DNA of 52,976 nt from the NCBI GenBank assembly GCA_949288455.1, contig CASEKF010000042.1, positions 1-52,976 on the forward strand. Direction: 5' to 3'. Below the pieces are notes generated by a model. The model was not told where the DNA came from and searched no databases. It was given only the letters and a program-made list of their open reading frames with translations. Each line of letters starts with the position of its first letter. Position 1 is the stretch's first letter. Positions 4,293 to 51,694 of this stretch are shown piece by piece. The position numbers and the translations under genes were made by a program. Source of the DNA: an uncultured bacterium (GTDB lineage: Bacteria > Vulcanimicrobiota > CADAWZ01).

Positions 4293-4353
4293 AACTTAAG
4301 GCGTTTTGGTATTTTTCTGCGTTCCGCCCCGTATGTTTTGGAGCTTGAAGTTT

Positions 4354-5196: not shown

Positions 5197-5230
5197 ACTA
5201 TATCGTAAATTTATTCCGCGGGAGGACTTT

Positions 5231-34898: not shown

Positions 34899-35891
34899 AT
34901 GGAAAATAAAGATATAAAAGATTTAGCTAAAGTAGTTGAAAAAGAGTATCCGATTATAAGACAGATACAAAGCGAAGCCTCTAAAGTAATAGTAGGGCAG
35001 ACTGAAATAATTGAAAAACTTATAATAGGACTTATAACGAGAGGTCATATTTTGATAGAGGGAGTGCCCGGTCTTGCCAAAACCCTTACCGTTAAAACGC
35101 TTTCAGATATTATACAAACCAGTTTTCACAGAATTCAATTTACTCCGGACCTTCTTCCGGCGGATATAGTTGGCACTACGATTTATAATCCTAAGAAACA
35201 TGAATTTACTACTAAGCAGGGGCCTGTTTTCGCAAATCTTATTCTTGCCGACGAAATAAACAGAGCTCCCGCTAAAGTTCAAAGCGCGCTTCTTGAAGCT
35301 ATGCAGGAGAGGCAGGTAACTATAGGCGATTCGACTTTTAAGTTGGAAGAGCCGTTTATGGTTATGGCTACTCAAAATCCTCTTGAACAGGAAGGCACTT
35401 ATCCTCTTCCCGAGGCACAGATAGACCGTTTTATGCTTAAATTGAGAATTTCTTATCCTTCGAAAGAAGAAGAACTTGCTATTATGGAGCGTATGGTTTC
35501 TAACGAACAGCCTAAAGCTTCTAAAACGATATCTCCCGAAGATATTTTGAGAATTCAAAAAATTATACCGGACATATATATGGATCCAAAAGTAAGCAGA
35601 TATATAGTAGATTTGATTTTCGCTACCAGGTATCCGGATCAGTTTAAACTTGAAGATTTAAAGTCGTTAGTCGCTTGGGGAGCTTCTCCTAGGGCTACGA
35701 TTGCTTTGTCTTTAGCTTCCAGGGGCAACGCTTTTATGTCGGGAAGATCGTTCGTTACTCCGGACGACGTTAAAGCCATGGCTTACGACGTTCTTCGCCA
35801 TAGAATTATTTTGACTTATGAAGCTGAAGCTGAGGAAATAACGTCTGAAGACGTGATAAAGAAAATTTTAGCTAACGTCGACGTGCCTTAA
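34899..35891 (+). CDS. moxR: MoxR family AAA+ ATPase
   Basis: This 330-residue MoxR-type chaperone ATPase has Walker A GVPGLAKT (about 51-58), ILADEINRAPAKVQSALLEAMQERQVT as the Walker B to sensor region (read in parts), the ATQNPLEQEGTYPLPEAQIDRF segment (also in parts) and a C-terminal lid domain. These ATPases are thought to act on VWA-containing partners, which are encoded just downstream. The start is ATG 34899, after GGAGCCGAT. It starts an operon that runs through DUF58, BatA, BatB, BatC, BatD and BatE. Confidence 0.95.
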   Translation: MENKDIKDLAKVVEKEYPIIRQIQSEASKVIVGQTEIIEKLIIGLITRGHILIEGVPGLAKTLTVKTLSDIIQTSFHRIQFTPDLLPADIVGTTIYNPKKHEFTTKQGPVFANLILADEINRAPAKVQSALLEAMQERQVTIGDSTFKLEEPFMVMATQNPLEQEGTYPLPEAQIDRFMLKLRISYPSKEEELAIMERMVSNEQPKASKTISPEDILRIQKIIPDIYMDPKVSRYIVDLIFATRYPDQFKLEDLKSLVAWGASPRATIALSLASRGNAFMSGRSFVTPDDVKAMAYDVLRHRIILTYEAEAEEITSEDVIKKILANVDVP

Positions 35892-35986
35892 GAAAGATAA
35901 GGCGGTTTTTGAAAATCTTTTGACTTTGATAATGTGCCTTGGCATATTTTAGCATTAATTCAAGCGTTTTGTTTGGAGCTTTATTT

Positions 35987-36874
35987 ATGAACTCAGAAAA
36001 ATTAACCGCGCTAAAGAAAATAAAGGGTATCGAAATAAAAACGAGGCGTCTCGTCGAGGATTATTTTTCAGGAAAATATCAAAGTATTTTTAAAGGCGTA
36101 GGCATGAACTTTTCCGACGTGCGGGAATATTATCCGGGAGACGATATAAGGAACATTGACTGGAACGTGACGGCGCGTTTAGGCAAGCCTTTTGTAAAGG
36201 AATTTGTGGAAGAGCGGGAGCGAACCGTTATAGTGGCGGCCGACGTTTCCGGATCGGGAGATTTCGGCAGCTTTCTTAGAACTAAGATTGAAACCATTTG
36301 CGAATTAGCGGCCGTGTTAGCTTTCTCTGCTCTTAGGAACCAGGATAAAATAGGTTTAGTTCTTTTCAGCGAAGGAGTAGAAAAATATTTGCCTCCTAAG
36401 AAAAATTCTCAATACGCTATGAGGATTATTCGCGAGATTTTATATTATAATCGTGAAAATTCGAAAACTGACATTTCGAAGACGTTAAAGTTTTTAAACG
36501 ACGTAGTTAAAAAAAGAGCGGTTATTTTTCTTATTTCCGATTTTATTGATTCCGGTTTTGAAAAATCGCTTGCCATGCTTAACGGTAAACATGACGTTAT
36601 AGCATTGAGAGTGAGCGATCCTATCGAGGATTCTTTGCCGGATATCGGATTCATCGAGTTAGAGGACAGCGAAAGCGGAGAAAGGTTTATAGTAAATTCT
36701 TCGGATCCTGCGTTTAGACGCGAGTATGAAAAAAATATCATGGAAAGGAACGACGAGCTTAAGCTTATGTTTGGCAAAGCGAAAATAGATTATGTCCTTT
36801 TAAATACCGTTCAGTCTTATATAAAACCTTTATACGCTTTTTTTAAAGCCAGAGAGAGGCGGCTTAGAGTATAA
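35987..36874 (+). CDS. DUF58 (VWA-like) protein of the Bat operon
   Basis: This 295-residue protein has the DUF58 signature region GMNFSDVREYYPGDDIRNIDW (two parts: GMNFSDVREY and YPGDDIRNIDW) followed by a von Willebrand A-like fold with IVAADVSGSGDF as the metal site region. It is soluble. DUF58 proteins accompany MoxR ATPases. ATG 35987 is supported by GGAG nine bases upstream, whereas an in-frame ATG at 35939 has no such site. Its stop shares one base with the next ATG. Confidence 0.9.
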   Translation: MNSEKLTALKKIKGIEIKTRRLVEDYFSGKYQSIFKGVGMNFSDVREYYPGDDIRNIDWNVTARLGKPFVKEFVEERERTVIVAADVSGSGDFGSFLRTKIETICELAAVLAFSALRNQDKIGLVLFSEGVEKYLPPKKNSQYAMRIIREILYYNRENSKTDISKTLKFLNDVVKKRAVIFLISDFIDSGFEKSLAMLNGKHDVIALRVSDPIEDSLPDIGFIELEDSESGERFIVNSSDPAFRREYEKNIMERNDELKLMFGKAKIDYVLLNTVQSYIKPLYAFFKARERRLRV

Positions 36875-37782
36875 TGGCTCGTTTGATAGTTTTATTTGTC
36901 CTTACGTCGTTAATTTTATTTTCTCCCGTTTGGCCCGCGGAAAAAAAAGCTGTTTTATCCGTATCTCCGGCTAAGGTTCAGATTGGCGATCCTATAAACG
37001 TAACTCTTGAAGTTAAAACTTCTAAATCTGAGCGCTTTTCGGTTAGCGAAGGTTTTAATTTGTCTGATTTGGAACTTTTGAACGAAAAGACGCCCGTATT
37101 TTTTGAAAAAGAAGGAGAGTTTATATCAGCTTACCAATTTGAGGCCGTAGCTTGGAGCGTAGGAGAAAAAAAGCTAGGTCCCGTTGTCATAATTTTTGAT
37201 TCCGGCGAGAAATTGATGTCAAACGAAGCTTCCGTCGTTATAGAAAGCGTTATTTCCGAAGAAAATTCTTCTTTCGCCGATATAAAAAATAATTTAGACT
37301 CTATTCCTGCGGCATATATATGGCTTATCGTTCTTTTTCTGATTATCGTTCTTATAGTTTTAATAATATTCATCGTTAAATTAATTAAAAAGAAAAATAC
37401 GAAAGATGAGAATGTGGAAAAAATAAGGACTCCTGAAGAAATTGCGGAAGAATCTTTGCAAAAACTTGCGGAATACGATTTAACGGAAGAAAAATCGCTT
37501 AAGGAATATTACGTTCAGCTTGCCGAAATACTGAGGCGATATATAGAAGCCCGTTATTCTTTGCCCGCTTTAGATTCCACGACGGGAGAGCTTTACAAAA
37601 TTTTAAGGGACAACGAATATTTAAAAGAAAGAGCTTCTGATATAAAAACTTTACTTTCTCAGTGCGATTTGGTTAAATTTGCGAAATATTTACCCGATAC
37701 GCATAAAGACGATTTTGATATGACGGAGACTATTTATAATAAGATTAAATATCGAGAAAAAAAAGAGGATAGTAAATCATGA
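36874..37782 (+). CDS. Membrane-anchored Bat-operon protein (DUF4381-like position)
   Basis: This 302-residue protein has a signal peptide (MARLIVLFVLTSLILFSPVWPA), a beta-rich extracytoplasmic domain starting VLSVSPAKVQIGDPI that resembles the first domain of BatD, one transmembrane helix (about 148-171, WLIVLFLIIVLIVLIIFIV) and a cytoplasmic helical tail (LKEYYVQLAEILRRYIEARY, ALDSTTGELYKIL). This is what is usually found between DUF58 and BatA. It starts in an overlap with the DUF58 stop and overlaps BatA by four bases (ATGA), so all are coupled. Confidence 0.8.
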   Translation: MARLIVLFVLTSLILFSPVWPAEKKAVLSVSPAKVQIGDPINVTLEVKTSKSERFSVSEGFNLSDLELLNEKTPVFFEKEGEFISAYQFEAVAWSVGEKKLGPVVIIFDSGEKLMSNEASVVIESVISEENSSFADIKNNLDSIPAAYIWLIVLFLIIVLIVLIIFIVKLIKKKNTKDENVEKIRTPEEIAEESLQKLAEYDLTEEKSLKEYYVQLAEILRRYIEARYSLPALDSTTGELYKILRDNEYLKERASDIKTLLSQCDLVKFAKYLPDTHKDDFDMTETIYNKIKYREKKEDSKS

Positions 37783-38789
37783 CTACGGTTATAGCCTCTT
37801 ATTGGTTCGGTCTTCTTGTATTCTTGCCTTTAGCCGTACTTTATTTTGTTTTTAGACGTAAAGCGAGGCGGACTTCTGCCGTAAGATTTCCTTTATTGTC
37901 TATTGTTAAAAAGTCCGGAAGCGGAGTTCAGGGAAAGTTTTTTAGTTTATTATCTTTCTTTCTTAATTTTATCGCGTTAATTTTAATTATTTTGGCCCTT
38001 ATGCGGTTTCAGTCTAAGGTTCCAATGCCGGCTGATTATTCTTCTTCTTTCGACGGCACCGATATAATGATTTGTTTGGACACTTCGCCTAGTATGCTTG
38101 CGGTCGATTTTGGGCGCGACGACAGAATTACCGTAGCTAAGGAAGTTATATCCGAATTTATTAAGGGACGTCCGAACGACAGGATAGGCCTTGTCGTTTT
38201 TGCCGGGGCAAGTCTTACTATGTGCCCTTTAACTCTTGATCACGGCACTTTAATCGATTTGACTTCGAGTTTGGAACAGGATGTTACTAAGACAGACGGA
38301 ACCGCTATTGGAGACGCTCTGGCTACTTCTATAAACAGACTTAAAAATAGCGCGGCTAAAAGTAAAGTAATTATACTTGTCACCGACGGCAGCAACAATA
38401 TGGGGCATATTGATCCTAACACGGCGGCGGAGATCGCAAAAAAGTTAGGAATAAAAATATATTCCATAGGAGTCGGCAAGGAAGGAATAAGCCAGATGCC
38501 CATTAGGGGGCCTTTGGGGATAACCAGATACGTTCCTATAGAAGACAGCTTGGATGAGCCGGCTTTAAGAAAGCTTGCTGATATTTCCGGCGGAGAGTAC
38601 AGTAGAGCTAAGAGTATCGACTCTTTGAAATTGATTTTTAATAGGATCGACTCTTTGGAAAAGACAGAGTTTAAGAAACAGGCTTCTTTTATCTATTCGG
38701 AATTATTTAATTTTTTCTTAATTCCGGCTTTTATAATGCTTTTACTCGACGTTTTGCTTACTAATACTATTGCCCGCCGTATTCCATAG
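37779..38789 (+). CDS. batA: BatA, von Willebrand A-domain membrane protein
   Basis: This 336-residue protein has membrane segments near the N-terminus (about 8-24 and 55-76) and C-terminus (about 308-328), bracketing a VWA domain. The metal-ion-dependent adhesion site reads DTSPSM (D-x-S-x-S), with the later residues in TDGTAIGD and LVTDGSNN. It matches BatA of the aerotolerance operons. In Bacteroides and Leptospira these operons affect oxygen or oxidative-stress tolerance, but the molecular role is unsettled. Confidence 0.9.
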   Translation: MTTVIASYWFGLLVFLPLAVLYFVFRRKARRTSAVRFPLLSIVKKSGSGVQGKFFSLLSFFLNFIALILIILALMRFQSKVPMPADYSSSFDGTDIMICLDTSPSMLAVDFGRDDRITVAKEVISEFIKGRPNDRIGLVVFAGASLTMCPLTLDHGTLIDLTSSLEQDVTKTDGTAIGDALATSINRLKNSAAKSKVIILVTDGSNNMGHIDPNTAAEIAKKLGIKIYSIGVGKEGISQMPIRGPLGITRYVPIEDSLDEPALRKLADISGGEYSRAKSIDSLKLIFNRIDSLEKTEFKKQASFIYSELFNFFLIPAFIMLLLDVLLTNTIARRIP

Positions 38790-38810
38790 TTATCGAAAAG
38801 AGGAACTAAT

Positions 38811-39812
38811 ATGAATTTTGCGCATTCAGATTATTTTGCCGTTCTTTTTATATCTCTCTTTGCGGCCGCTTGCCTTATTGTAGGCGGGTTAATTATTAAG
38901 AAAAAGAAGATTGATAAATTGGCGTCTTCGGGTATAATGGGGAAAATAGCTCCTGATTTTAGCCGGAAAATGCAGACTCTGCGCGCCGTGTGTCTTTTTT
39001 TAGGTCTAATTTTTTTAGCTTTGAGCATCGCCGGTCCTCAATGGGGCAGAAAAGTTGCAGAAGAAACTTTGAAAGGCATTGAAGTTATTATAGCTTTAGA
39101 TTGTTCTCAAAGTATGGCCGCTCAGGATTATAAACCCTCTAGACTAGATTTTTCAAAAGCGGTGGCAATTAAACTTATCGACGCTTTAAAAGGCAATAAA
39201 ATTGGAATTATAGCTTATGCCGGAGAAGCTTATCTTGAATGTCCTCTGACTACCGATTTCGACGCGGCCAAATTATTTATGGATTACGCCGATTATTCTA
39301 TTATGCCTATCCAAGGCACAGATATAGGAAAAACCATTAATCTTGCTTTAAGTATTTTTACTCCGGGCGATAGTTCTTCGAAAGCCCTTATACTTATTTC
39401 AGACGGAGAAAATTTTTCAAGCGACGTTATAAAAGCCGCCGAATTGGCTCGTAAACAAGGCGTGTCGATTTACGCTATAGGTATAGGCTCTCCGGAAGGA
39501 TCCACGTTGATTATAGACGGTAAAGAAAAAAAAGATAGAAACGGCAATACGGTCGTTTCCAGATTAGACGAAAATCTTTTGAAACAGATATCTTCGTTAA
39601 CCGAAGGAACATATATACATGCCGATTATGAATCGGCTACTTTGGAGAAGACGATCTCGGCGGTTTTATCTTTAGAGAAAAAAGATTTGGGCGTTAAATC
39701 TGAAAATTTATATATTAATCGTTTTCAGTATACTCTTTTCCCCGCTTTCGTATTTTTATTTATAAGCTTTGCTATGGGAGAGAGGCGGATTTTGATATAT
39801 GGAAAAAAATAA
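38811..39812 (+). CDS. batB: BatB, von Willebrand A-domain membrane protein
   Basis: This is a 333-residue paralogue of BatA with membrane helices at about 10-27, 60-78 and 309-327. The metal site reads DCSQSM, with GTDIGKT and LISDGENF further on, so metal binding should be intact. A segment IIDGKEKKDRNG is an insertion compared with BatA. It follows BatA by 21 bp, with AGAGGAACT upstream of the ATG. It overlaps BatC by 14 bp. Confidence 0.9.
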   Translation: MNFAHSDYFAVLFISLFAAACLIVGGLIIKKKKIDKLASSGIMGKIAPDFSRKMQTLRAVCLFLGLIFLALSIAGPQWGRKVAEETLKGIEVIIALDCSQSMAAQDYKPSRLDFSKAVAIKLIDALKGNKIGIIAYAGEAYLECPLTTDFDAAKLFMDYADYSIMPIQGTDIGKTINLALSIFTPGDSSSKALILISDGENFSSDVIKAAELARKQGVSIYAIGIGSPEGSTLIIDGKEKKDRNGNTVVSRLDENLLKQISSLTEGTYIHADYESATLEKTISAVLSLEKKDLGVKSENLYINRFQYTLFPAFVFLFISFAMGERRILIYGKK

Positions 39813-40683
39813 ATTTTATTATTTGATATTTTTATTTGCGGCATTTTTCGTGTCGTGGCGTCCCGTATACGCTTTTGGAGGATATGTCGACGCGTTTAAA
39901 GCCGATTTAGATTATAAAAAGAGCTTATATGAAAAGTCGGCTTCGGGATACCGTAAAGCTATTTCCGATAATCCAAGTTGGAAAGAGCCTCAGTTTAATT
40001 TGGGTAATTCGCTGTATCGTTTGGGTAAATATGACGCCGCATTAAAAGAGTATGAAAGTTTGCTTGACGGAGCTTCTTTAAATTTGCAGGCTAAAGCTTT
40101 ATATAATATGGGAAACGCTTATTATCAAAAGGGAGAGCTTGATAAAGCTATAGACGCTTATAAAAGATCTTTGAGAATTAATCATAGAGATATGGACGCA
40201 AAACATAATTTAGAATTATGTCTTAAGGAAAAGAATAACAAAGATAACCAGGATCAAAACAAAGATAACCAGGACCAAAACAAAGATAATCAAGACCAAA
40301 ACAAAGATAATCAAGACCAAAACAAAGATAATCAAGACCAAAATAAAGATAATCAAGACCAAAACAAAGATAATCAGGATCAAAACAAAGATAATCAAGA
40401 CCAAAACAAAGAGAATCAGGACCAAAACAAAGATAATCAAGACCGGAACAAAGATAACCAGGATCAAAACAAAGATAATCAAGACCAAAACAAAGATAAT
40501 CAAGACCAAAACAAAGACAATCAGGACCAAAACAAAGATAATCGACAAAATAAAGATCAGCAGGATAGAGAACTTGAAAATGCAATAAAATATTTGCAGA
40601 ATTTTGATAATTTAGAGAAAGAACATCGCAAGGCAACCGCTGGAAAATATTTACAGCGAAGTTACTCTGATAAAGATTGGTAA
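39799..40683 (+). CDS. batC: BatC, TPR protein with an Asn/Asp/Gln/Lys heptad array
   Basis: This 294-residue protein has a signal peptide or anchor (about 1-22), TPR repeats at about 35-150 (NPSWKEPQFNLGNSLYRLG, ALYNMGNAYYQKGELDKAI), then an NKDNQDQ heptapeptide array (about 147-245) and a charged end (LQRSYSDKDW). TPRs suggest protein-protein contacts in the Bat complex. The array is highly polar and probably disordered, acting as a spacer. It starts inside batB (14-bp overlap) and BatD follows after 6 bp. Confidence 0.88.
   Translation: MEKNKFYYLIFLFAAFFVSWRPVYAFGGYVDAFKADLDYKKSLYEKSASGYRKAISDNPSWKEPQFNLGNSLYRLGKYDAALKEYESLLDGASLNLQAKALYNMGNAYYQKGELDKAIDAYKRSLRINHRDMDAKHNLELCLKEKNNKDNQDQNKDNQDQNKDNQDQNKDNQDQNKDNQDQNKDNQDQNKDNQDQNKDNQDQNKENQDQNKDNQDRNKDNQDQNKDNQDQNKDNQDQNKDNQDQNKDNRQNKDQQDRELENAIKYLQNFDNLEKEHRKATAGKYLQRSYSDKDW
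40237..40530 (+). repeat. 21-bp tandem repeat, 14 full copies, inside batC
   Basis: Fourteen consecutive 21-bp units begin with AACAAAGATAA and encode NKDNQDQ, with single changes to NKENQDQ (unit 9) and NKDNQDR (unit 10). A partial unit follows from 40531. The minus strand is also free of stop codons because of the repeat. Copy number is likely to vary between strains. Confidence 0.95.
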
Positions 40684-40689
40684 TAATTT

Positions 40690-42495
40690 ATGATAAGAAA
40701 GAATATTTGGCTGCAGTTACTTTTCATGTTTTTTATATTGTGTGCCGGAGTTTCTATCGCTTCAGAGATTAAAATATCGACTGAAATAAGCAAAGCTTCT
40801 ATAAGCAGATATGAACCTCTTATCTTAACCGTGTCCATAGAGGATGGAGAAGGTAAACCTTCGGTTTCGGAAAATGAAGATTTTAAAGTTGCCGGAGAAT
40901 CCGTTTTCCACTCTACCGAAATTATAAATTTTAACGTACAAACTAAAAAGACTTTTTCATATACTTTGATTCCTAAGCGGACCGGAAATTTAAAAACCCC
41001 CGTCGTTTTTGTAGAGTCAGACGGACAAACTTACGAGGCTCCCTCTAAGGATGTCGTAGTGAGCGACTCCATAGCTCCTTCTGTCCCAGGGAATCCTGTT
41101 CCGCCTTCGCCTTTTGGTTTTGGAGAAGATGACGAAGACGATATATCTAATCTTTTCCAACGTTTAAATCAAATGCAGAGAAGAGTATTGGGAGAAGAAC
41201 AAAGTCGATTCCCGTATCCTTTTAGAAGAATCTTTAACGAAGTCTTTTTAGACGCGGAAATTTTTGACACAGATATTTTTGTAAATCAGCAAGCGCTTTA
41301 CAACGTAGATCTTTATACGCCGGCCGATTTTCCGGTTGAGATACGCGCGATTCCGTCTGTTAACGAGGGAGTTCTTATCCAGCAAATAGAGCCTATTCAG
41401 ACCTTGCCTTTTGAAAAAGACGGAGTTTCATATATAATTAACAGAATTTCTTTCGCGTTGTATCCTATGCGTTCGGGAGAGATGACGATCAAGCCGTTCA
41501 ACGTTACTTATTTATCTCGTCTGGAAGGCTGGAAGTCGCTTATGACTAAAGAATTTACCTTGTCCGTATCTGAGCTTCCAACGCCGTATCCCGAAGATTT
41601 TTCTCAAGGAATAGGCGAATTTGAATTGAGCGTCAAGGCGGATACCGAAACGGCCGAGGTTTCTAAACCTTTTTCTTTGACTTTATCCGTCTCGGGAAAG
41701 GGAAACGCTTCGTCCGTTAATCTTTCTGCCCCGATCGTGGAAGGTGCGAATAAATTTGATTCGTCTGAGACTGTAAAAAAAATAATTTCCGGAGAAAATT
41801 TAATTGAAACTAAAGAACTTAAGGTAACTTTAGTTCCCGAGCGCTCCGGCGAGATTGAAATACCGGCTTTATCCGTCTCGTTTTTTGATCCAAATTTTAA
41901 ACGATATTATTCTAAAAGTTCGGCTCCTATAAAACTGAAAGTAATAGGAGAAAATAGACCGGGAACCGTTAACGTTACTAAATATCCTCAAACTTCGGCT
42001 TCTTTTTCTATTAAAACAGAGATGACCGGAAGGACGGGCAAAGGTCTTCTTGCTAATCCTATCGCGCTTTTTATATTTTGTCTGCCGTTTTTTATTTACG
42101 TCTTTATAATTTTGAAAACGAAAGTTTTAGAGTTTTTAAAAGCCGAAGACAATTTTTCCGGTTCCGGAAAGGCGTATAGTAAATTGAAAAATGATTTAAA
42201 ACATTGTCAAGAAGGCGGCTATGATTTTATAGCTCAGAGCTTTTTTAATTATTTAATAACTCGTCTTGATTTTAGGGACTCAGCCCTAACTACTCGCGCC
42301 GCCGTAGATCAAGTTGAAAAGATAACGGGAGATCCCGATTTGGCTACTAAAATCAGGAATATTTTCGTTATTTGCGACGAAGCGCGTTTTTCGTCGGACG
42401 AGGTTGGAGCTGCAGACAGCGAGCCTCTTATAAAAAATTGTCTTGCTTCTGCCGCTGAGTTGGAAAAAATATTAAAGGATAAATCGAATGTTTAG
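40690..42495 (+). CDS. batD: BatD-like membrane protein
   Basis: This 601-residue protein has a signal peptide (about 1-22), a periplasmic beta-rich region with several immunoglobulin-like parts (TEISKASISRYEPLILTVSIE at the start, given in pieces; KPFSLTLSVSGKGNASS), a transmembrane helix (about 458-478, LANPIALFIFCLPFFIYVFIIL) and a cytoplasmic tail with DFRDSALTTRA. This layout is BatD (oxygen tolerance family). It overlaps BatE by 8 bp. Confidence 0.88.
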   Translation: MIRKNIWLQLLFMFFILCAGVSIASEIKISTEISKASISRYEPLILTVSIEDGEGKPSVSENEDFKVAGESVFHSTEIINFNVQTKKTFSYTLIPKRTGNLKTPVVFVESDGQTYEAPSKDVVVSDSIAPSVPGNPVPPSPFGFGEDDEDDISNLFQRLNQMQRRVLGEEQSRFPYPFRRIFNEVFLDAEIFDTDIFVNQQALYNVDLYTPADFPVEIRAIPSVNEGVLIQQIEPIQTLPFEKDGVSYIINRISFALYPMRSGEMTIKPFNVTYLSRLEGWKSLMTKEFTLSVSELPTPYPEDFSQGIGEFELSVKADTETAEVSKPFSLTLSVSGKGNASSVNLSAPIVEGANKFDSSETVKKIISGENLIETKELKVTLVPERSGEIEIPALSVSFFDPNFKRYYSKSSAPIKLKVIGENRPGTVNVTKYPQTSASFSIKTEMTGRTGKGLLANPIALFIFCLPFFIYVFIILKTKVLEFLKAEDNFSGSGKAYSKLKNDLKHCQEGGYDFIAQSFFNYLITRLDFRDSALTTRAAVDQVEKITGDPDLATKIRNIFVICDEARFSSDEVGAADSEPLIKNCLASAAELEKILKDKSNV

Positions 42496-43228
42496 AGCAT
42501 GCATATGTTTCATTCTCTTATTTTCAGCGCTGTGTAACAACGTTTTCGGCGAAGATTTTAAAGCTGAATTTTCGGCCGCCAACGATTTGTATTCCAATGG
42601 AAATTATTCTCAAGCTTTAGAGAAATATGAAAAAATTTTAGAAAGCTACTCTTCTCCGGAGGTTATGTATAACGCCGGGTGCGCGGCTTTAAGAATGGAT
42701 AGAAAAGGGATAGCTTTATATTATTGGCGACATGCTTTAGAAAACGCTCCTCGCGATCATGCTTTGGCGAATGCTGAAAAAACTCTGGAAGAGCAAATAC
42801 TGAAAGACGGAGGGATAATTTCAAGGCCGTCGGATATACCTATTATCAGCAATTTTACGGAAAATGAAATAGCTTTTATATTTTTATCTTTCTTTTTCTT
42901 TATCTTTACTTTGACGCTAATTAATAGAAAATGGAAAAAAGATCTATTTTGGGTTTACTTCGCGCTATGGAGCGGTTTCGTGTTGTCCGGAGCGTCTTTA
43001 GCGGTTTCGGAAATTAGATTTTCCGGAAGTTTCGCCGCAGTTTCTTCTCCCAGCGCAGAAATAAGAGACAGTCAGAATATTAATAGTCCTTGTTTTTATA
43101 TACTTAAGGACGGCAGCGAAGTAAAAATTCTGGCTATAGAACATGGCTGGCTTAGAGTCGCGTTTGTCGAACAAAATGGAAAATACCATGAGGGCTGGGC
43201 TCCTGAAAAAGATTTTATTAAATTGTGA
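42488..43228 (+). CDS. batE: BatE-like protein with TPR and SH3 parts
   Basis: This 246-residue protein has a signal peptide (about 1-21), TPR-like repeats (NDLYSNGNYSQALEKYEKIL, EVMYNAGCAALRM), two transmembrane helices (about 133-152 and 158-178) and a C-terminal SH3-like domain (about 185-245: SAEIRDSQN, ILKDGSEVKILAIEHGWLRV, GWAPEKDFI). The layout is that of BatE. It is the last gene of the operon, with 233 bp to the next pilin module. Confidence 0.85.
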   Translation: MFRACICFILLFSALCNNVFGEDFKAEFSAANDLYSNGNYSQALEKYEKILESYSSPEVMYNAGCAALRMDRKGIALYYWRHALENAPRDHALANAEKTLEEQILKDGGIISRPSDIPIISNFTENEIAFIFLSFFFFIFTLTLINRKWKKDLFWVYFALWSGFVLSGASLAVSEIRFSGSFAAVSSPSAEIRDSQNINSPCFYILKDGSEVKILAIEHGWLRVAFVEQNGKYHEGWAPEKDFIKL

Positions 43229-43461: not shown

Positions 43462-43857
43462 ATGTCTCCCCAAAAAAATAGCGGCGTTACGATGCCCGAA
43501 CTTTTAGTGTCTTTAAATATAATTTGTTTTGCTATTTTTGTAATGGCGGTAGTTATGCTTATGCTTATAAGAAGCGGGCAGAAGAATATAGACAATTCTT
43601 CGGCATATATCGTAGCAGATTCCGTTATGAAGGTTTATCTTGCCGATAATAAGGGAATGTTGAAAAATGAAGTCGTTAACGGAGTTGAAAATTACGGGCA
43701 TAAAAAGTATAAGTATCAAATAGAAACTTCAAGAAGCGACGTTTATCAAGCGATGTTTTACGTTAAGGTTTCGGTTACTTCCGTAGAAGCCGACGGGGCG
43801 GGTACGGCCGTAAACGCGGTGATTAGCACTATTGTTTCCGAAAGGGCCGGATTATGA
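43462..43857 (+). CDS. Minor pilin, first gene of module 2
   Basis: This 131-residue protein has the prepilin signal MSPQKNSG followed by VTMPELLVSLNIICFAIFVM, with Glu at +5. After the helix comes RSGQKNIDNSSAYIVADSVMK, shared almost exactly with the first gene of module 3. It is shorter than most pilins but complete. It starts a module with PilW- and PilX-like genes, overlapping the next by four bases (ATGA). No clear ribosome-binding site (GAGAG about 15 bases upstream). Confidence 0.82.
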   Translation: MSPQKNSGVTMPELLVSLNIICFAIFVMAVVMLMLIRSGQKNIDNSSAYIVADSVMKVYLADNKGMLKNEVVNGVENYGHKKYKYQIETSRSDVYQAMFYVKVSVTSVEADGAGTAVNAVISTIVSERAGL

Positions 43858-44609
43858 GATATTGCGGGAAAAAGGTTTCAAAAGGATTTACTTTATTAGA
43901 GGCTTTGATTGTCACCGTAGTATTCGGAGCTTTAATGTCAGTTATTTTTTACGCTATGAATTCTTTTCAGAAGGCTTCTTTAAAAGCGGGAGCCAAACAG
44001 GATATTAACGGGCAGATAGCCAGAATTTACAGAGATATCAATAAAAACGTATCGGGAGGCACGGCGATATATTTTGAATTTTACGATAACGGCTCTAACC
44101 ATGATATAAGCTCGATTAATTCAAATAAATTTTCCGTCGAGAAGAGATGGTTTGTATTCCCTGTCAGCAGAGTCTCGAATTCCTCTCAGATGAATTATAC
44201 CGGCAATATTATATACAATAAAATGATATTATATTTTTTGTATTATCCGGGTTGCTGCAACGGTTTTAATAATTGTCCTCATAAATCTCTTTACAGAAGA
44301 ACTTATGATTGTTATATAACCGGAGGCGTAGCTTTACGCAATCCGATGAAAAATTTAGCGTCTCAGTCGGTATTGGAGAGTAAGATGTCGCTTAGCGATT
44401 GGAACGGCTTGCATAAAGTTGACGAAGGCATAGTTGATTTGACTGTTTCTCAGAGAGACGATATTATCACTTTTAATTTAACTCTTCTTAGATTGGAAGA
44501 CGCCGCGAGACATATTGATATAGGAACTAAGAATTTGGTTTCTCCCGATCAAGAAACAAAAAAATATCTTGAGACTATATCTTGGAACTCCGTTCCGGAA
44601 AACACTTAA
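43854..44609 (+). CDS. Minor pilin, PilW/GspJ-like (module 2)
   Basis: This 251-residue protein has the prepilin leader ending in KG, followed by FTLLEALIVTVVFGALMSVI, with Glu at +5. The soluble part has a cysteine-rich YYPGCCNGFNNCPHKSLYRR region that is mirrored in module 3 (YKNGCCNNFDCCPHK), so these cysteines are probably important. The end DSWNSVPENT-like segment (SWNSVPENT) also matches module 3. It overlaps the preceding gene by four bases. Confidence 0.83.
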   Translation: MRYCGKKVSKGFTLLEALIVTVVFGALMSVIFYAMNSFQKASLKAGAKQDINGQIARIYRDINKNVSGGTAIYFEFYDNGSNHDISSINSNKFSVEKRWFVFPVSRVSNSSQMNYTGNIIYNKMILYFLYYPGCCNGFNNCPHKSLYRRTYDCYITGGVALRNPMKNLASQSVLESKMSLSDWNGLHKVDEGIVDLTVSQRDDIITFNLTLLRLEDAARHIDIGTKNLVSPDQETKKYLETISWNSVPENT

Positions 44610-44623
44610 GGAGATATTACGTT

Positions 44624-47266
44624 ATGAAAAAAAAGAAAGGCATAATTCTTCTTTATACTCTCGCTATCACGTCTATTTTAAGCATTCTTCTTATGGGCGT
44701 AGTGTGGAAAATGCAAAACAGCGTTTTATTGACTAAACGGACGGTTCAAGAAATAAAGTCTTATTGGTCTGCTCGAGCCGGCCTGGATTTCGCCGCGGAC
44801 AGACTTACTTCCAACGTCAGTTGGCCCGTTTCGGAAGCGTGCGTTATAGGAGGCTATTCAATAAACGTAATTCCTAACGGAAAAATAACGGGTTTAGACA
44901 GTTCAAGCGATTCTTCGTTCGATCTTCGTTATTACAAAAGCGCGTCTAATACCAACGACGCCGATATTATTAAAGATATCCAAAGAACTTCGACCAGAGT
45001 TTTTCTTTCTAAAAATGAAATTTATTTTTTATCTACCGGAAGATGCGGCTCTAACGATGGAACCAAGATTAATTCCGGGGCTTATACGTCCAGTCTCGAA
45101 TCGGTTTACGCTATGGCTCAACCGGTTAATTTGACGTCTAATTCTTCCGAAACTTCGACCGCTTCGGATATTACGACTGCCAGCGCGGCAATTTACGCCA
45201 ACGGAAGCATAGTCGCAAATATTGACGGAGGATTTTATGTTACTCAGACAGGCGGCTCCCGTCCCGGGCTTGTTTCTAAAGGCAGCGTGACTATTAACAG
45301 TTCGGGAAAATCAAGTCCGCCGAACAGATATTCCAGTTCTCCTCTGTATATGGGGGAAGGAAACGTTTTCGTAGGAGGCTCCGTCTCTCTTAACGGCGCT
45401 ACCATTAAGCCTTCAAATACCAGCAAAAATTTAGTTAATTACGGTCTTAGAGTTTATAATTCTTCTTCCGCTTCAATTCCTCGGGTTTCTATGCCCGCTC
45501 AGAAAGGAATTGATATTCCGGCCGGAATTTACGCTTATATAGAAAAACCTGACGGAGAGCAAACAGACTATATAGAAGATCTGTGCAAAAGAATTTATAA
45601 TATTAAGTTTTATAAAAAATATATTTTAAAAGACGACTCCGAAGGCGATACTCTTGATCCAAATCAAATGGAGGCTTACAATTCTTTTATTGTAGACAGA
45701 GGAAGCGAGTTTACCAGTTTGTCTGCCAATCTTACGTCTACTTTGGGAACTAAACAGTATGAGCCTTTTTTTATACCCGCTTCCATAGCTACAACAAGCG
45801 AAAATTTTCCTCTGAGCTTTGAAGAATATACGAAAGCCAGAAATTTGTCAACTCAGCTGGATCTTCTTGAAAACGCTAAAAAAAATTATGAAGAGTCGAT
45901 AGAGAACCTAAACGAGGCCAAAAGCGAATTCAGCATATTTAATATATTTAACTTGTTTAACAATATAAAAAATATCTTTGAAGCCATGGATGACGAACAG
46001 GAGGCCAGAGATGCTTTAAAATTTATAGAAAGCAACGTTGAGACATACGTGGAAGACGAAGGTTGCAAGTATGTTTTTGAAAAAATTTATTATAAAGGGG
46101 ACGGTTCAGGCTCCTCCGCTCCGTATTTTACTATTATAAAGCCCGTAGAGGACTACGATGTTTCTTACGCTTCCAACAATAAGTCTTTTGATACGAGCAA
46201 CAATATGTTTAATACCGACGTATTAAGAGCTTTTACTTTTGAAGAAGAAGGGGAAAAACTTCTGTTAAAATTCAACGATTCCGTTTATACTAAAGGCGAT
46301 TTTTCGTTTCAGGCTTTTGAAAGAGGAGACGGCGCGTATGAACAGGCTACAATCAAGAGACCCGTTATCGATTTAGGCAATACTTCCGATTCCGGCGCGA
46401 CCTGTCTTCATGCAAACAATATAGATATTAGAGGCATAGTGAACGGCTCCGGCAGAATAGTCGCGTCTAACGATCTTAAATTGGAAGCCGGAGCTAAGCT
46501 GAACGCAGGCGACAGCAATTGGCTGGCTTTGTACGCAGGAAACGAATTGAATCTTTCTTATATTAGCGCAGGTTCGTCTCAGATTGTTACGGCCGAAGAG
46601 CTGCAGCAGGGGAAAACCGCTACGGGGGAAGCATTAGGCCAGGATTCTTTGGCAAGACAAGTCGTATCTTTTGTAGAAAAAGCTTTTGGCGTTGAGCTTA
46701 TGAAAGACGGCAATCTTAATCTCGATGATCTTAATAATATTCTTAATAATACCGGCGACGAGGAATTAGAGAATCTTCTTAAAAACACTAAAAACGGCGA
46801 CGGCGTTTCTTACGCGGAAGTGTTGGGCGGACTTGACACGCAATCAGGAAATCTGGAAGAAGAATTTGCCAACGATTACAGCTCAAGAGATCTGATTGAG
46901 GCTCCTTCCGAAAAAGTTATATCTCAGCTTTCTTGTTGGGCGACTGATCAGCCTTATATCGTTCAGTCAAATTTTAGAGGGTTGCTTTATTCCAACAACG
47001 TCATAAATATAAACGGAGGCGGACAGGGTAATGATTTTTGTCTTGAAGGAATCGTTATATGTAATAACGGCGGAATTATTAATATTTCGGGAGTGCAAAA
47101 CGTAGGAATTCAGTACGACGCCGAGCTTTCAAAAATAATTTTGCCTGATAGTTTCGACAGTTTAAGTTTGACGCTTAAAGATATTATGGTAGAGCAGGAC
47201 GGAGAATTATCAAATACTGTTTATAGTATTAACACGCCTATTTTCAGAGCTTTTAATCGATATTAA
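44624..47266 (+). CDS. Giant PilX-like minor pilin (module 2, 880 aa)
   Basis: This 880-residue protein starts MKKKKG, then a hydrophobic helix IILLYTLAITSILSILLMGV without Glu at +5, then a PilX-like SYWSARAGLDFAADRL. It is far longer than ordinary PilX (about 200) or GspK (about 330). Several parts look beta-solenoid-like (GSIVANIDGGFYVTQTGG; VFVGGSVSLNGATI; NNIDIRGIVNGSGRIVASN), separated by a helical part (about 415-470). ATG 44624 has AAGGAG eleven bases upstream; an in-frame start at 44582 would overlap the PilW gene. It is probably a tip or adhesin-like subunit (inference). Confidence 0.8.
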   Translation: MKKKKGIILLYTLAITSILSILLMGVVWKMQNSVLLTKRTVQEIKSYWSARAGLDFAADRLTSNVSWPVSEACVIGGYSINVIPNGKITGLDSSSDSSFDLRYYKSASNTNDADIIKDIQRTSTRVFLSKNEIYFLSTGRCGSNDGTKINSGAYTSSLESVYAMAQPVNLTSNSSETSTASDITTASAAIYANGSIVANIDGGFYVTQTGGSRPGLVSKGSVTINSSGKSSPPNRYSSSPLYMGEGNVFVGGSVSLNGATIKPSNTSKNLVNYGLRVYNSSSASIPRVSMPAQKGIDIPAGIYAYIEKPDGEQTDYIEDLCKRIYNIKFYKKYILKDDSEGDTLDPNQMEAYNSFIVDRGSEFTSLSANLTSTLGTKQYEPFFIPASIATTSENFPLSFEEYTKARNLSTQLDLLENAKKNYEESIENLNEAKSEFSIFNIFNLFNNIKNIFEAMDDEQEARDALKFIESNVETYVEDEGCKYVFEKIYYKGDGSGSSAPYFTIIKPVEDYDVSYASNNKSFDTSNNMFNTDVLRAFTFEEEGEKLLLKFNDSVYTKGDFSFQAFERGDGAYEQATIKRPVIDLGNTSDSGATCLHANNIDIRGIVNGSGRIVASNDLKLEAGAKLNAGDSNWLALYAGNELNLSYISAGSSQIVTAEELQQGKTATGEALGQDSLARQVVSFVEKAFGVELMKDGNLNLDDLNNILNNTGDEELENLLKNTKNGDGVSYAEVLGGLDTQSGNLEEEFANDYSSRDLIEAPSEKVISQLSCWATDQPYIVQSNFRGLLYSNNVININGGGQGNDFCLEGIVICNNGGIINISGVQNVGIQYDAELSKIILPDSFDSLSLTLKDIMVEQDGELSNTVYSINTPIFRAFNRY

Positions 47267-47338
47267 TTTCTGATGGAGCCTACTGTTTTCCCCGGCTGCC
47301 TCGGAGTTCGCATTATAATTTTGAGCAGTTAAGTCTTT

Positions 47339-47372
47339 AAAATTCCGATATATATATATCGGAATTTTTTTT
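47339..47372 (+). terminator. Terminator after minor-pilin module 2
   Basis: AAAATTCCGATA (47339-47350) and its complement (47357-47368) form a 12-bp stem with loop TATATA, followed by TTTT. It separates module 2 from module 3. Confidence 0.88.
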
Positions 47373-47383
47373 ATGTAAAGAAT

Positions 47384-47412
47384 TTGTTTTTTTTTAGTTT
47401 TTTATGTATAAT
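47384..47412 (+). promoter_or_regulatory. Promoter of minor-pilin module 3
   Basis: TTGTTT (47384-47389) and TATAAT (47407-47412) are 17 bp apart, giving a start near 47419 and a leader of about 31 bases. It follows immediately after the terminator of module 2, so module 3 is independently transcribed. Confidence 0.6.
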
Positions 47413-47449
47413 TAATTTTAAGGATATTTTATATTTCAGGAGGTCTTTT

Positions 47450-47899
47450 ATGCGGCGTAAGATGACTCGCGGCGTTACTATGACGGAACTGCTGGTCTCT
47501 TTGAATATCATAGTCTTTGGTATTTTTGTCATGGCTATGGTAATGATGATGCTTTTAAGAAGCGGCCAAAAAAATATAGATAATTCTTCGGCATATATCG
47601 TGGCCGATTCCGTTATGAAAGAATATCTCAGTAAGCATATAGATTCTTTGGAACATGGGTACGATAGCAGAACAGAAAATACGCCTTTTTCTTACGCCGA
47701 TAAAAAGTTCCATTATAAAATAGAAGCTTCTCAGATTTCCGGTTATGGAGATATGATATACCTTAAAGCCAGCGTAGAGGAAATAGAAGCTTCGGGAGGA
47801 TCCTCCGATATGAAAGCCGTTATAAGCACCATAGCTTCTAAGAGAATAGGCGGTATCAGCGTTCAGGAGACTCATAATATGGGAGGAAATTCAATATAG
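47450..47899 (+). CDS. Minor pilin, first gene of module 3
   Basis: This 149-residue protein has the prepilin signal MRRKMTRG followed by VTMTELLVSLNIIVFGIFVM, with Glu at +5, then RSGQKNIDNSSAYIVADSVMK. ATG 47450 has CAGGAGG six bases upstream. A longer in-frame reading from 47384 would add a hydrophobic segment without coding character. Its last residues (SVQETHNMGGNSI) have no match in the module 2 gene, and the stop TAG at 47897 lies in the first bases of a duplicated segment, so the present end seems to be newly formed. Confidence 0.82.
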   Translation: MRRKMTRGVTMTELLVSLNIIVFGIFVMAMVMMMLLRSGQKNIDNSSAYIVADSVMKEYLSKHIDSLEHGYDSRTENTPFSYADKKFHYKIEASQISGYGDMIYLKASVEEIEASGGSSDMKAVISTIASKRIGGISVQETHNMGGNSI

Positions 47900-48162
47900 A
47901 TAATTCTTCGGCATATATCGCGGCCGATTCCGTTATGAAAGAATATCTTAGTAAGCGTATATTGGTACGACGGCGGAGCAATAAATACGCCTTTTTCTTA
48001 CGCCGATAAAATTGCCGCTATGAAATAGAAGCTTCTTAAATTTCCGGTTATGGAGATATGGTTTATCTTAAAGCTAGCGTAGAGGAAATAGAAGCTTCGG
48101 GAGGATCTTCCGAGATGAAATCCGTGATAAGCGCCGTATTTTCTACAAGAACAAATTTATGA
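47893..48162 (+). pseudogene. Decayed tandem partial copy of the module 3 pilin gene
   Basis: The text from 47893 repeats 47573-47848 closely (for example NIDNSSAYIAADSVMKEYLS and VEEIEASGGSSEMKSVIS). It lacks the leader and helix, has a frameshift after about 30 codons near 47962, and carries an in-frame TAA at about 48036 where the intact copy has CAG. Its 3' end (VISAVFSTRTNL then TGA, 48160-48162) probably is the original end of the gene, just before the PilW-like gene. Confidence 0.92.
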
Positions 48163-48172
48163 CGAGGCTCGT

Positions 48173-48952
48173 ATGAAGTTTAAAGGTTTTACTCTTTTGG
48201 AAACATTAGTGTCTATAGCTGTTTTTACGGCGCTTATGACTATCGTTTTTAACGCTTGGATTACATTTCAAAGAACCGCTTTAAAAAACGAGGGGAAACA
48301 AGACGCTAACTCTCAATGTATAAAAATTTACCGAGACGTAAATAAATATTTGTCTTCGTCAAGCATAAGATATTTCGAATGTTATAATAGTTTCGGCAGC
48401 TCTCAGGATGCCGGTAAGCGTTGGTTCGCTTTTTTATTGAGCAGAAAAAAAGATGAAGCTGCGGCTTATCCAGATTTATTTGCGCCTATGGACTATGAAC
48501 AGATGACTACCTCTCCTATTTTAGTTTATAATACTTTGATGGTTTACAGGCTGATTTATAAGAACGGATGCTGCAATAATTTTGATTGCTGTCCTCATAA
48601 AGTTTTGGGCAGACGGGCGTTTTACGCTAAAGAACCTATATACGTCGGCAAAACGTCTTACAAATTTTCTTCCGAACTTCAGGAAAATTTACAATATGCC
48701 ATAGCTTCCGAAGATATCAAAGATTATGTTGTCGTTGAAAATAACATAATAGATTTAACCGTCAATCAAGACGACGATAGAGTTTCTTTTTATTTGTCGA
48801 CTCTGCGTATTGCGGATGCCCGGAGAGAATTTGAATTCGGAACTGTGCCTTTGACGTCGGAAGCTTCCGGAAATCAGAATTTTCAGGCTTCTGATAAGGC
48901 AAAAAACTACTTGGAGAATTTATCTTGGATTACTGTTCCCGGTAATACTTAG
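48173..48952 (+). CDS. Minor pilin, PilW/GspJ-like (module 3)
   Basis: This 259-residue protein has the leader MKFKG followed by FTLLETLVSIAVFTALMTIV, with Glu at +5. It is paralogous to the module 2 gene: it shares the cysteine cluster GCCNNFDCCPHK, RDVNKYLSSS, and an ending of the form LSWITVPGNT. The start is 10 bp after the pseudogene stop, with GACGAGG upstream. The next gene begins 9 bp after the stop. Confidence 0.85.
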   Translation: MKFKGFTLLETLVSIAVFTALMTIVFNAWITFQRTALKNEGKQDANSQCIKIYRDVNKYLSSSSIRYFECYNSFGSSQDAGKRWFAFLLSRKKDEAAAYPDLFAPMDYEQMTTSPILVYNTLMVYRLIYKNGCCNNFDCCPHKVLGRRAFYAKEPIYVGKTSYKFSSELQENLQYAIASEDIKDYVVVENNIIDLTVNQDDDRVSFYLSTLRIADARREFEFGTVPLTSEASGNQNFQASDKAKNYLENLSWITVPGNT

Positions 48953-48961
48953 GAGGACTTT

Positions 48962-51694
48962 ATGGGCCGAAATAAAGGCGTTATTTTATTATGTACCTTG
49001 GCCGTAATGACTGTTATAAGCATATTCTTAATGGCGGCCGTATGGAGAACTCAAAATAGTATTTTGATGACAAAGCGCGTAACGCAGGAAATAAAGGCTT
49101 ATTGGTCCGCTAAAGCCGGAATAGTTTTTGCCGCCGCAAGCGTGGTTAATAACGTCGAATGGCCTTTTAGAACTTCGACTCAGCAGGGCGGCGGCTTTAG
49201 GGTGACTTTTGACAACAATGTCGTAAAGGGAGAAGACGAAGAATCAGGCGGAGCGTTTTCCATATTTGTTAAAAGCCGATTGGCGTCGTCCTCAGCTTCG
49301 TCTTCCCTGGAACTTTGTCCTTATGCGAGAATGCTTAACAGAATCGACGAGTCTTATCCGCCGGAAAAGGAAGCTTATATTCTTTCGGTAGGTTCCTGCG
49401 GTTCTTCTGTGTGCGGTCTTGAAATTATATACGGAGTCGATCAAAATATTGAAGAAATCAGCACGTCTGCGGCCGTATACGCCGGAGGAAACATTAACGC
49501 TTTCGTAGACGACAAAGTATATATTCTTCAGACTTCGGGGACCAGACCTTCAATTATTTCAGGCAACGGAACTATAATTATTAATGGAACGGGAAATCTC
49601 GGCAAAGAAAACGACGGTCCTTTGGTTATGGGGGAGGGAATAGTATTTTTAAATAATTCCGGAAAACTGAGTTTGACAGGCTCCTCCTCTTCCGTAACTT
49701 TATATCCAAGTTATACCGCTTCAAATCTTGTCAAATACGGTCTGAACGTTTACCCTGTGTCAGGGATTAAAAAACCTGAAGTAACTATGCCTTCCAGACC
49801 CGCTGACGCGTTAAAGATTCCTTCCGGCACTTACTGTTATGTGGAAATGCCCGAAAGTTATACTTTAAATGAATTTCAGTCTGTCCTTAACAATTTGCGA
49901 TATTATCCTATCGAGGATTTTGTAGAATATTATGATAAAGCTAAAACTATAAACGGATATACTTACGGTTCAGGCTCAGACGTCTTAAATACGCAGATGA
50001 GCGTCGTTAAGTGCAACGGCGAAGACATTCAGGCTTCCGACACTTATAATTATGATCCTCAAACAATGTTTGACAAATTTTTTAACGATATGAAGAATAG
50101 TTTTAACGACGCTTTGGGAAAACGTGGCGACGAGGAAAAAAATAAAATTATAGATCAATATAAATTCTATTTAACGGATAAAGTCAATAATACCGTTACT
50201 TCTTATTCGGCAAACTCCGAAGTGGGGAATAAAAAATACGAACCTTTTTTTATACCTCCCGGAGTAGCGAATACCGATAAAGAAAATAAAAGTTTAAGCC
50301 TTACGTTTAAACAGATTACCGAAGCAAGAATTTTTGCGGATATTGTCGATTCTTTAGAGCGAGCCGAAGAACGAATGGAGAATTCCGGATCCGGTTTTTT
50401 TGGCTTGCTAAAAAAACTAGTGGCTTATTTCGAGGTCCGCAATATAAGAAACCGTATAGAGGAACAAGTTAAGGCGGCCGGGGATGACGAATACGTGGCC
50501 GAGAAGATTTATTATTCGGAGACGGAGGACGGCAAATTTTTTACCGTCTTGAAGCCAAAAAAGGAGTATAATAAGCATTATAAAGACGAATTCTCGTTCG
50601 ACGCTTTACGGAAGCTTAACTTTACGGTAAACGATCAAGAATTGGGCTTAAAACTTTCTTCTTCTTTTTATACCGAAGACAGCGATAATTATTTTAATTT
50701 CGCTACTTATGAGCGCGGAGTAACTATCTACAAAACGGCTGAAAAACGACGAGGTTTTGTAGATTTAGGTTTATCGGCGAATGGAGCCGAAAAGGGAATT
50801 TATTCCGATAATATAAATATCAAAGGAATTATAAGCGGGAACGGTCAGCTTGTCGCCGAGAGAGGCGACGTTTCCATAGAAGCCGGTTCGGCTTTAAACG
50901 CGGGAGAAGAAAATTGGGTCGCTATTTATGCCCGTAATGATATAAAATTATCTAAAATTTCTGCGGAAGCGGGCAACGTTACTTCTTTAGAAGATATGTC
51001 CAGCGGCCATACAAGCGATTTTTCCGTTATTATAAAAAATATGCTTGAACAATATTTGCTTTCCAAAGGCTTAATAACCGGAAAAATTGATTTTTCTAAC
51101 AAGAAACATTTAGATATTATAGCCGGTTTGGATTCCGCGGCTATTAGTAATATTTATTTTCAGAAAGATAACTCAGGCGATTATTATTTAAATAAACTTA
51201 GAGGATTCGACGTGCCTGCAGGGGCTTTGGAAGACAAAAATAACGAGAGCGGAGATTACGTTACAAAATTTAACGAAATGATGGATCCAAGTCAAGAACC
51301 GTTATTGAGAGGTTCTTATAATAAGGTTAGAGAACAGATTAAATGTTGGGGTAGCGGCGAGAAATATATAGTCGCTTCTAATTTTAGAGGGTTAATATAT
51401 GGGAATAATTTATATTTGGACGGATGCGGAAACGCTTCCGCAGAGAGCGACGGATCCTATTCTACGACGCAAGTAAAGCCAAGTTTCGCTTTAGAAGGCA
51501 CTATCATATGTTCGGGCGATATTAATATAGTAAATTATTATTCGGTAGTTATAAAGTATAATCCCGAGTTGTCAAGCATAATTTTTTCACAAAGCCCTAA
51601 TTGGGATTCCGCGATGAGTTTGCTGGAAAGATCGATTAGAGACGCGGGAGGAGTTAATAACGAGGGAAAATTTAAGGCCTTTAATCGTATATAA
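48962..51694 (+). CDS. Giant PilX-like minor pilin (module 3, 910 aa)
   Basis: This is a 910-residue paralogue of the module 2 PilX-like protein. The N-terminus is MGRNKG, then VILLCTLAVMTVISIFLMAA, then YWSAKAGIVFAA. Shared landmarks include the beta-repeat parts (NINAFVDDKVYILQTSGTRP), KKYEPFFIPPG, DNINIKGIISGNGQLVAE, LNAGEENWVAIYA, SNFRGLIYGNN and the end GKFKAFNRI. The proteins differ mostly in the variable middle regions. A leader peptide for prepilin peptidase is present. AGGAGG (48951-48956) precedes the ATG by five bases. Confidence 0.8.
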   Translation: MGRNKGVILLCTLAVMTVISIFLMAAVWRTQNSILMTKRVTQEIKAYWSAKAGIVFAAASVVNNVEWPFRTSTQQGGGFRVTFDNNVVKGEDEESGGAFSIFVKSRLASSSASSSLELCPYARMLNRIDESYPPEKEAYILSVGSCGSSVCGLEIIYGVDQNIEEISTSAAVYAGGNINAFVDDKVYILQTSGTRPSIISGNGTIIINGTGNLGKENDGPLVMGEGIVFLNNSGKLSLTGSSSSVTLYPSYTASNLVKYGLNVYPVSGIKKPEVTMPSRPADALKIPSGTYCYVEMPESYTLNEFQSVLNNLRYYPIEDFVEYYDKAKTINGYTYGSGSDVLNTQMSVVKCNGEDIQASDTYNYDPQTMFDKFFNDMKNSFNDALGKRGDEEKNKIIDQYKFYLTDKVNNTVTSYSANSEVGNKKYEPFFIPPGVANTDKENKSLSLTFKQITEARIFADIVDSLERAEERMENSGSGFFGLLKKLVAYFEVRNIRNRIEEQVKAAGDDEYVAEKIYYSETEDGKFFTVLKPKKEYNKHYKDEFSFDALRKLNFTVNDQELGLKLSSSFYTEDSDNYFNFATYERGVTIYKTAEKRRGFVDLGLSANGAEKGIYSDNINIKGIISGNGQLVAERGDVSIEAGSALNAGEENWVAIYARNDIKLSKISAEAGNVTSLEDMSSGHTSDFSVIIKNMLEQYLLSKGLITGKIDFSNKKHLDIIAGLDSAAISNIYFQKDNSGDYYLNKLRGFDVPAGALEDKNNESGDYVTKFNEMMDPSQEPLLRGSYNKVREQIKCWGSGEKYIVASNFRGLIYGNNLYLDGCGNASAESDGSYSTTQVKPSFALEGTIICSGDINIVNYYSVVIKYNPELSSIIFSQSPNWDSAMSLLERSIRDAGGVNNEGKFKAFNRI

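Follow-up and report, generated by a model that had tools for sequence, protein, structure and literature searches.

What proteins of nearly a thousand residues are doing in genes arranged like those of minor pilins, and which machine they serve, is the question raised by a locus in the genome of an uncultured bacterium of the phylum Vulcanimicrobiota (assembly GCA_949288455.1). The window, that is, the whole stretch analysed here (contig CASEKF010000042.1, 52,976 nucleotides), carries between positions 43,462 and 51,694 two trios of genes, termed V, W and X, the last of which encodes a giant protein in each trio. A preliminary description regarded the trios (modules 2 and 3) as paralogous minor-pilin sets that could form a distinct adhesive or secretion tip. 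The analysis favours, at a probability of about 0.7, the explanation that each trio forms an alternative start-and-tip complex of a type IVa pilus, in which X, a modular cap resembling ComZ, would present a putative ligand-binding solenoid.

All six open reading frames of modules 2 and 3 are intact, lie on the forward strand and follow the parallel V-W-X order previously described, which is that of GspI/GspJ/GspK-type genes. In module 2, V2 (43462..43857, 131 aa) is a PilV/GspI-type minor prepilin, W2 (43854..44609, 251 aa) a PilW/GspJ-type minor prepilin and X2 (44624..47266, 880 aa from its ATG) a giant protein of PilX/GspK class; V3 (47450..47899, 149 aa), W3 (48173..48952, 259 aa) and X3 (48962..51694, 910 aa) are their counterparts in module 3. 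V2 and V3 share 81% DNA identity across 160 nt, and the X2 and X3 proteins are 42% identical over X3 residues 2-318 (E 1e-47) and 37% identical over residues 394-897 (E 3e-49), from which the two modules are judged to be true paralogues.

The class of X is indicated by its N-terminus. NCBIfam comparisons give GspK matches for X2 (1.7e-5, residues 5-63) and X3 (3e-4) that are far below the model's equivalog cut-off of 130 bits, together with a ComGG match for X2 (2e-4), and this GspK/ComGG affinity is limited to the first 60 residues. No full-length match of X to GspK, with its alpha-domain insertion, or to PilX was obtained, only the N-terminal 55-60 residues being alignable; orthology with either protein was rejected since nothing past the N-terminus matches. 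The giant parts contain no domain recognized by Pfam, NCBIfam or PADLOC. Glu5 of the mature protein, retained in the W proteins, is absent from every giant X examined, as expected for a cap (K) subunit; according to reviews, it is the K subunit, lacking Glu5, that caps the tip complex of I/J/K-type core minor pilins (PMC10191384, PMC9934059). Because the features of V, W and X match those of such core minor pilins, X is placed by sequence in the GspK class, as a cap pilin extended by a very large extra part.

Within the bacterial family represented by the window, giant X proteins fall into two clades, A, which includes those of modules 2 and 3, and B, represented in this genome on contig C8. 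The two clades are homologous over their first 300 residues (hhalign probability 99.9); GspK/ComGG affinity at the N-terminus was found in 10 of 12 clade-B members. Pairwise identity in clade A is highest in the N-terminal helix (57%) and lowest in the helical inserts (14-21%). The YEPFFIP segment pointed out earlier as a landmark common to X2 and X3 is the local form of a motif of which only the F-x-P part is family-wide, F430 and P432 being invariant in 11 clade-A sequences, and a short C-terminal strand is also conserved (FKxFNRI in clade A, YxNKL in clade B).

A class III signal, consisting of a short basic leader ending in Gly and followed by ∼20 hydrophobic residues, was seen by inspection in all six proteins of modules 2 and 3. 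V has NCBIfam affinity to GspI/PilV/ComGE (V2: ComGE 1e-3, GspI 2e-3, PilV 0.016; V3: PilV TIGR02523, 1.4e-3) and W carries the general GFxxxE prepilin signature; the N_methyl model of Pfam is matched above its cut-off by W2 (1.5e-5) and W3 (2e-5) and more weakly by V. Glu5 is present in V by inspection and, by alignment, in 21 of 21 W-like proteins from four genomes, in which a pair of cysteines, the lysine that follows and a few further positions are likewise invariant. The cysteine cluster of W2 (CC-x5-C-P-H-K) is matched in W3, as was noted before, and the alignment indicates that this is a family-wide character and not chance; it may have a role in metal binding or disulfide formation. 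In most clade-B W-like proteins the corresponding sequence is C-x4-C-x2-C-x(n)-C-[PS]-D-K, resembling a four-cysteine metal site.

The fold of X was predicted with AlphaFold, models being built separately from clade A and clade B alignments and compared by Foldseek with 350,542 PDB chains. Confidence was moderate (pLDDT 65.6 for clade A, modelled on X3, and 68.8 for clade B), and both models have a long N-terminal helix, a beta meander, solenoid-like strands with helical inserts between them and, at the C-terminus, a short final strand, in agreement with the beta-rich giant PilX-like proteins proposed originally. ComZ of Thermus thermophilus ranked first with either model, at E 0.010 (probability 0.35) for clade A and, with all three ComZ chains on top, at E 4e-5 (probability 0.95-0.97) for clade B. 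ComZ is a GspK-like, DNA-binding pilin in which a beta-solenoid is inserted between the penultimate and last strands (PMC6561018). An insertion ahead of the last pilin strand predicts that this strand must return beyond the solenoid, which the conserved C-terminal FKxFNRI/YxNKL sequences would fit. Since the top fold match is itself a pilin with an inserted beta-solenoid, the most likely identity of X is that of a modular pilin of the tip, with a predicted pilin fold, inserted solenoid and helical inserts; the models favour this fold class but do not support an exact arrangement.

The machine that such a cap would require is encoded in the same genome (2.13 Mb; completeness 98.9%). The type IVa pilus machine is present in full, with pilB-pilT-pilC-pilA on contig C9 and pilD with pilM-N-O-P-Q on contig C13, and a separate type II secretion system (T2SS) lies on contig C22 with ordinary GspI, GspJ and GspK proteins of its own (128, 204 and 297 aa). 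The modules therefore co-occur with both kinds of machine, and neither the prepilin peptidase nor the pilus motor, the absence of which had been named as an argument against a pilus-like system, is missing (PilD, PilB and PilT are all encoded). Approximately eight PilT/PilU-like ATPases were also seen in this 2.1-Mb genome, on contigs C39 (three), C65, C5, C9, C44 and C16.

X-like proteins, counted by an N-terminal profile across 58 genomes of the phylum, occur in 37 of them, with 9 in the genome of the window, 17 in G002, 26 in G004 and 41-43, the maximum, in several genomes of 7-8 Mb, so that the expansion, called unusual in the preliminary description, is not peculiar to this locus. The same profile found none in one family of the phylum (f9). 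Most are 600-1000 aa long; 150 listed X-like frames, which run from stop to stop and are in part truncated by contig ends, have a median of 710 aa, and 54 of the 80 that reach at least 700 aa come from 20 genomes that do not belong to the window's family. Five genomes (G018, G026, G028, G032 and G044) each contain 37-43 PilX/GspK-class proteins, many of them above 700 aa. Trios in V-W-X order were verified in G010, G012, G018 and G026, and G024 has X genes arrayed in tandem; that this order recurs both in relatives and in remote lineages of the phylum counts in favour of a core minor-pilin trio. In public genome contigs, a single X protein used as query had no match, while the X alignment found matches in the rumen metagenome-assembled genomes RUG13580 and RUG13696 and in one from horse faeces.

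Modules 2 and 3 occupy separate supported branches of the X tree, outside the expansion seen in G002 and G003, and are therefore probably old duplicates; a recent lineage-specific duplication was rejected on the same grounds, although the branches are long. An assembly chimera was rejected because the same modules occur in four genomes, and a defence system because PADLOC returned no match.

Taken as a start-and-tip complex, a V-W-X trio, being of I/J/K type (equivalent to PilV/PilW/PilX), would start and cap a pilus built by the single type IVa machine encoded elsewhere in the genome. The N-terminal helix and pilin sheet would anchor X at the tip, a location suggested by its loss of Glu5 and its bulk, and the beta-solenoid with its helical inserts, placed ahead of the last pilin strand as in ComZ, would be displayed outward as a ligand-binding head. 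The nine X genes could then equip one filament with several alternative tips, for which Myxococcus xanthus, where three minor-pilin/PilY1 clusters serve one pilus machine (PMC7541494), offers a precedent. In bacteria of the gut and rumen adhesion would be the likeliest use, so the tip role of the preliminary description is probable, and its adhesive form is preferred to the secretory one. A wider version, in which genomes throughout this mostly uncultured phylum hold up to dozens of exchangeable trios with different solenoid heads that fit one machine, recognize many ligands and have a modular cap in place of PilY1, is put forward tentatively, as a possibility with the odds against it. Several observations weigh against the start-and-tip explanation. 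The TM-scores with ComZ are low (0.12-0.24) and, at moderate pLDDT, the domain arrangement of the X models is not established; the clade-A profile matched no PDB sequence, so that X is without detectable sequence similarity to ComZ; and the presence of several PilT-like ATPases and additional pilin-like genes bears on whether all modules share one filament.

The surroundings of the modules provide further evidence on their organization. Directly upstream of module 2 is a MoxR/Bat operon of aerotolerance type (34899..43228, forward strand) encoding a MoxR ATPase, vWA proteins like BatA and BatB (1e-33 to 1e-35), a tetratricopeptide repeat (TPR) protein and BatD/BatE-like proteins. A clade-A trio directly follows this operon in four of four family genomes (the window; L037/L089, L088 and L041), at a distance of 233 bases in the window and of ∼25 bases or less in the relatives, a gap short enough to suggest that operon and trio form one operon there. 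Such linkage may point to a connection of Bat chaperone-like proteins with those of the pilus tip. The TPR protein contains a long run of ∼15 near-identical DNQDQNK repeats (40200-40560). Upstream of V2 is a sigma-70-like site with 10 of 12 positions matching, whereas V3 is preceded by an exact TATAAT whose -35 box is poor, and the parallel promoters described for the two modules have only partial support. A strong intrinsic terminator at the end of module 2 (47339..47368, forward strand; a 13-bp stem, then a T run) splits the modules, so that module 3 needs a promoter of its own. The V-W spacing differs between modules 2 and 3 because a decayed partial tandem copy of V3 (47893..48151, forward strand; 84% identical to 47573-47846), a pseudogene remnant into whose junction the V3 C-terminus runs, intervenes between V3 and W3.

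Module 1 (3501..6802, forward strand) is a smaller paralogous trio (V1, 263 aa; W1, 280 aa; X1, 523 aa) that brings the prepilin-like genes of the window to nine, the number given originally; X1 weakly matches an ice-binding-like adhesive domain (E 0.02). Beside it, on the opposite strand, is what by appearance only is a caspase-like (peptidase C14-type) lipoprotein gene (6846-8012). Clade-B trios neighbour genes for a conserved exported protein of 246 aa, a membrane protein and a phosphohexomutase-like protein. The exported protein (∼246 aa; motif L[RK]GGFPxT) is found within several clade-B modules (L031 10934-11674, L033 1762-2493, L039 4788-5555 and L042 2863-3618), has no Pfam or PADLOC match and is a candidate for a dedicated accessory factor of these modules.

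Three other explanations compete with that of a start-and-tip complex. The modules might make DNA-binding tips for natural transformation, the solenoid-pilin catching DNA in the manner of Thermus ComZ and the pilus retracting it to ComEA and ComEC, and here the nearness of the predicted fold to a DNA-binding protein, the many PilT-type retraction ATPases and the ComEC (1e-51) and ComEA-type helix-hairpin-helix proteins encoded in the genome are all in agreement. A single DNA-uptake task would hardly explain nine X paralogues, or up to 43 in relatives, however, and ComEC and ComEA are widespread; this reading is unlikely, though still a serious competitor. The trios could instead be T2SS pseudopilus tips which export specific exoproteins, with the large X proteins as substrate adapters. 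The genome does contain a T2SS locus and NCBIfam places X nearest GspK and V nearest GspI, but that locus has a complete ordinary I/J/K set and so has no need of the giant modules, which adjoin the Bat operon and are away from any T2SS gene; a secretion tip is consequently unlikely, and markedly so.

It is more improbable still that the additional modules are for the most part redundant or decaying copies which serve no function of their own. The decayed V copy inside module 3 is what such a process would leave behind, and the tandem arrays of G002 and G024 resemble a duplication process still under way; nevertheless, the reading frames of modules 2 and 3 are undamaged, orthologous pairs have been kept between the species G002 and G003 while the lineages of modules 2 and 3 predate that expansion, and the synteny with the Bat operon persists in each of the four genomes of the family. 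A role in starting and capping the type IVa pilus is accordingly preferred to each of these.

How bacteria vary the binding targets of type IV pili is an open question, and a 2.1-Mb genome with nine paralogous cap-type proteins beside a complete pilus machine, with relatives that have up to 43, is pertinent to it: were the tips exchangeable, the phylum would constitute a natural experiment in tip diversification. Large modular pilins, ComZ and a prepilin-cassette protein of 1,296 positions in NCBIfam are already known. What is new is the X family itself, for which there is no Pfam or NCBIfam model, the way in which it would join a predicted solenoid like that of ComZ to large helical inserts, and its multiplication across the phylum. 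The claim that its size is far beyond that of known proteins was overstated, given the similar predicted architecture of ComZ and published modular type IV pilins of up to 860 aa (PMC8179133).

Several known systems are comparable. The PilHIJK/GspHIJK and PilVWX sets agree with the modules in gene order, in the sizes of V and W and in having Glu5 in V and W but not in X; they differ in the size of their K subunit (307 positions in the GspK model, 297 aa in the GspK of this genome) and in possessing an H/FimU-type gene, which the modules lack. Verru_Chthon cassettes consist of four genes (proteins A-D). Like the modules, they are sets of prepilin genes in which one protein is very large (TIGR02600, protein A, a 1,296-position model), W3 matches the partner model TIGR02599 at 3e-4, and an X protein on contig C58 of the same genome aligns with positions 1-58 of TIGR02600 (8e-4). 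That match ends with the N-terminus, however, and neither X2 nor X3 matches TIGR02600 at E ≤ 1. M. xanthus, with minor-pilin/PilY1 clusters 1-3 (PMC7541494), likewise has several paralogous minor-pilin sets, but its tip effector is the non-pilin PilY1; a search for PilY1/PilC tip adhesins matched 0 of 58 genomes here, in a search without a positive control (no control genome matched). The modular pilins PilB and PilC of Streptococcus sanguinis also carry an effector domain on a pilin at the filament tip (PMC8179133, PMC9934059), although there a vWA or lectin domain is grafted at the C-terminus, whereas the X domain is predicted to be inserted within the fold. The closest resemblance is to ComZ (PDB 6QVI; PMC6561018), a GspK-like pilin without Glu5 that has a large beta-solenoid in a pilin framework and is encoded alongside minor pilins; its solenoid has ∼380 residues and its structure ∼518 resolved ones, while the X proteins described here span 750-1125 aa, with extra helical inserts and many paralogues per genome. 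If the X proteins are indeed exchangeable tips, ComZ, at present a lone structure from Thermus, would become part of a large class of tip pilins that bear solenoids.

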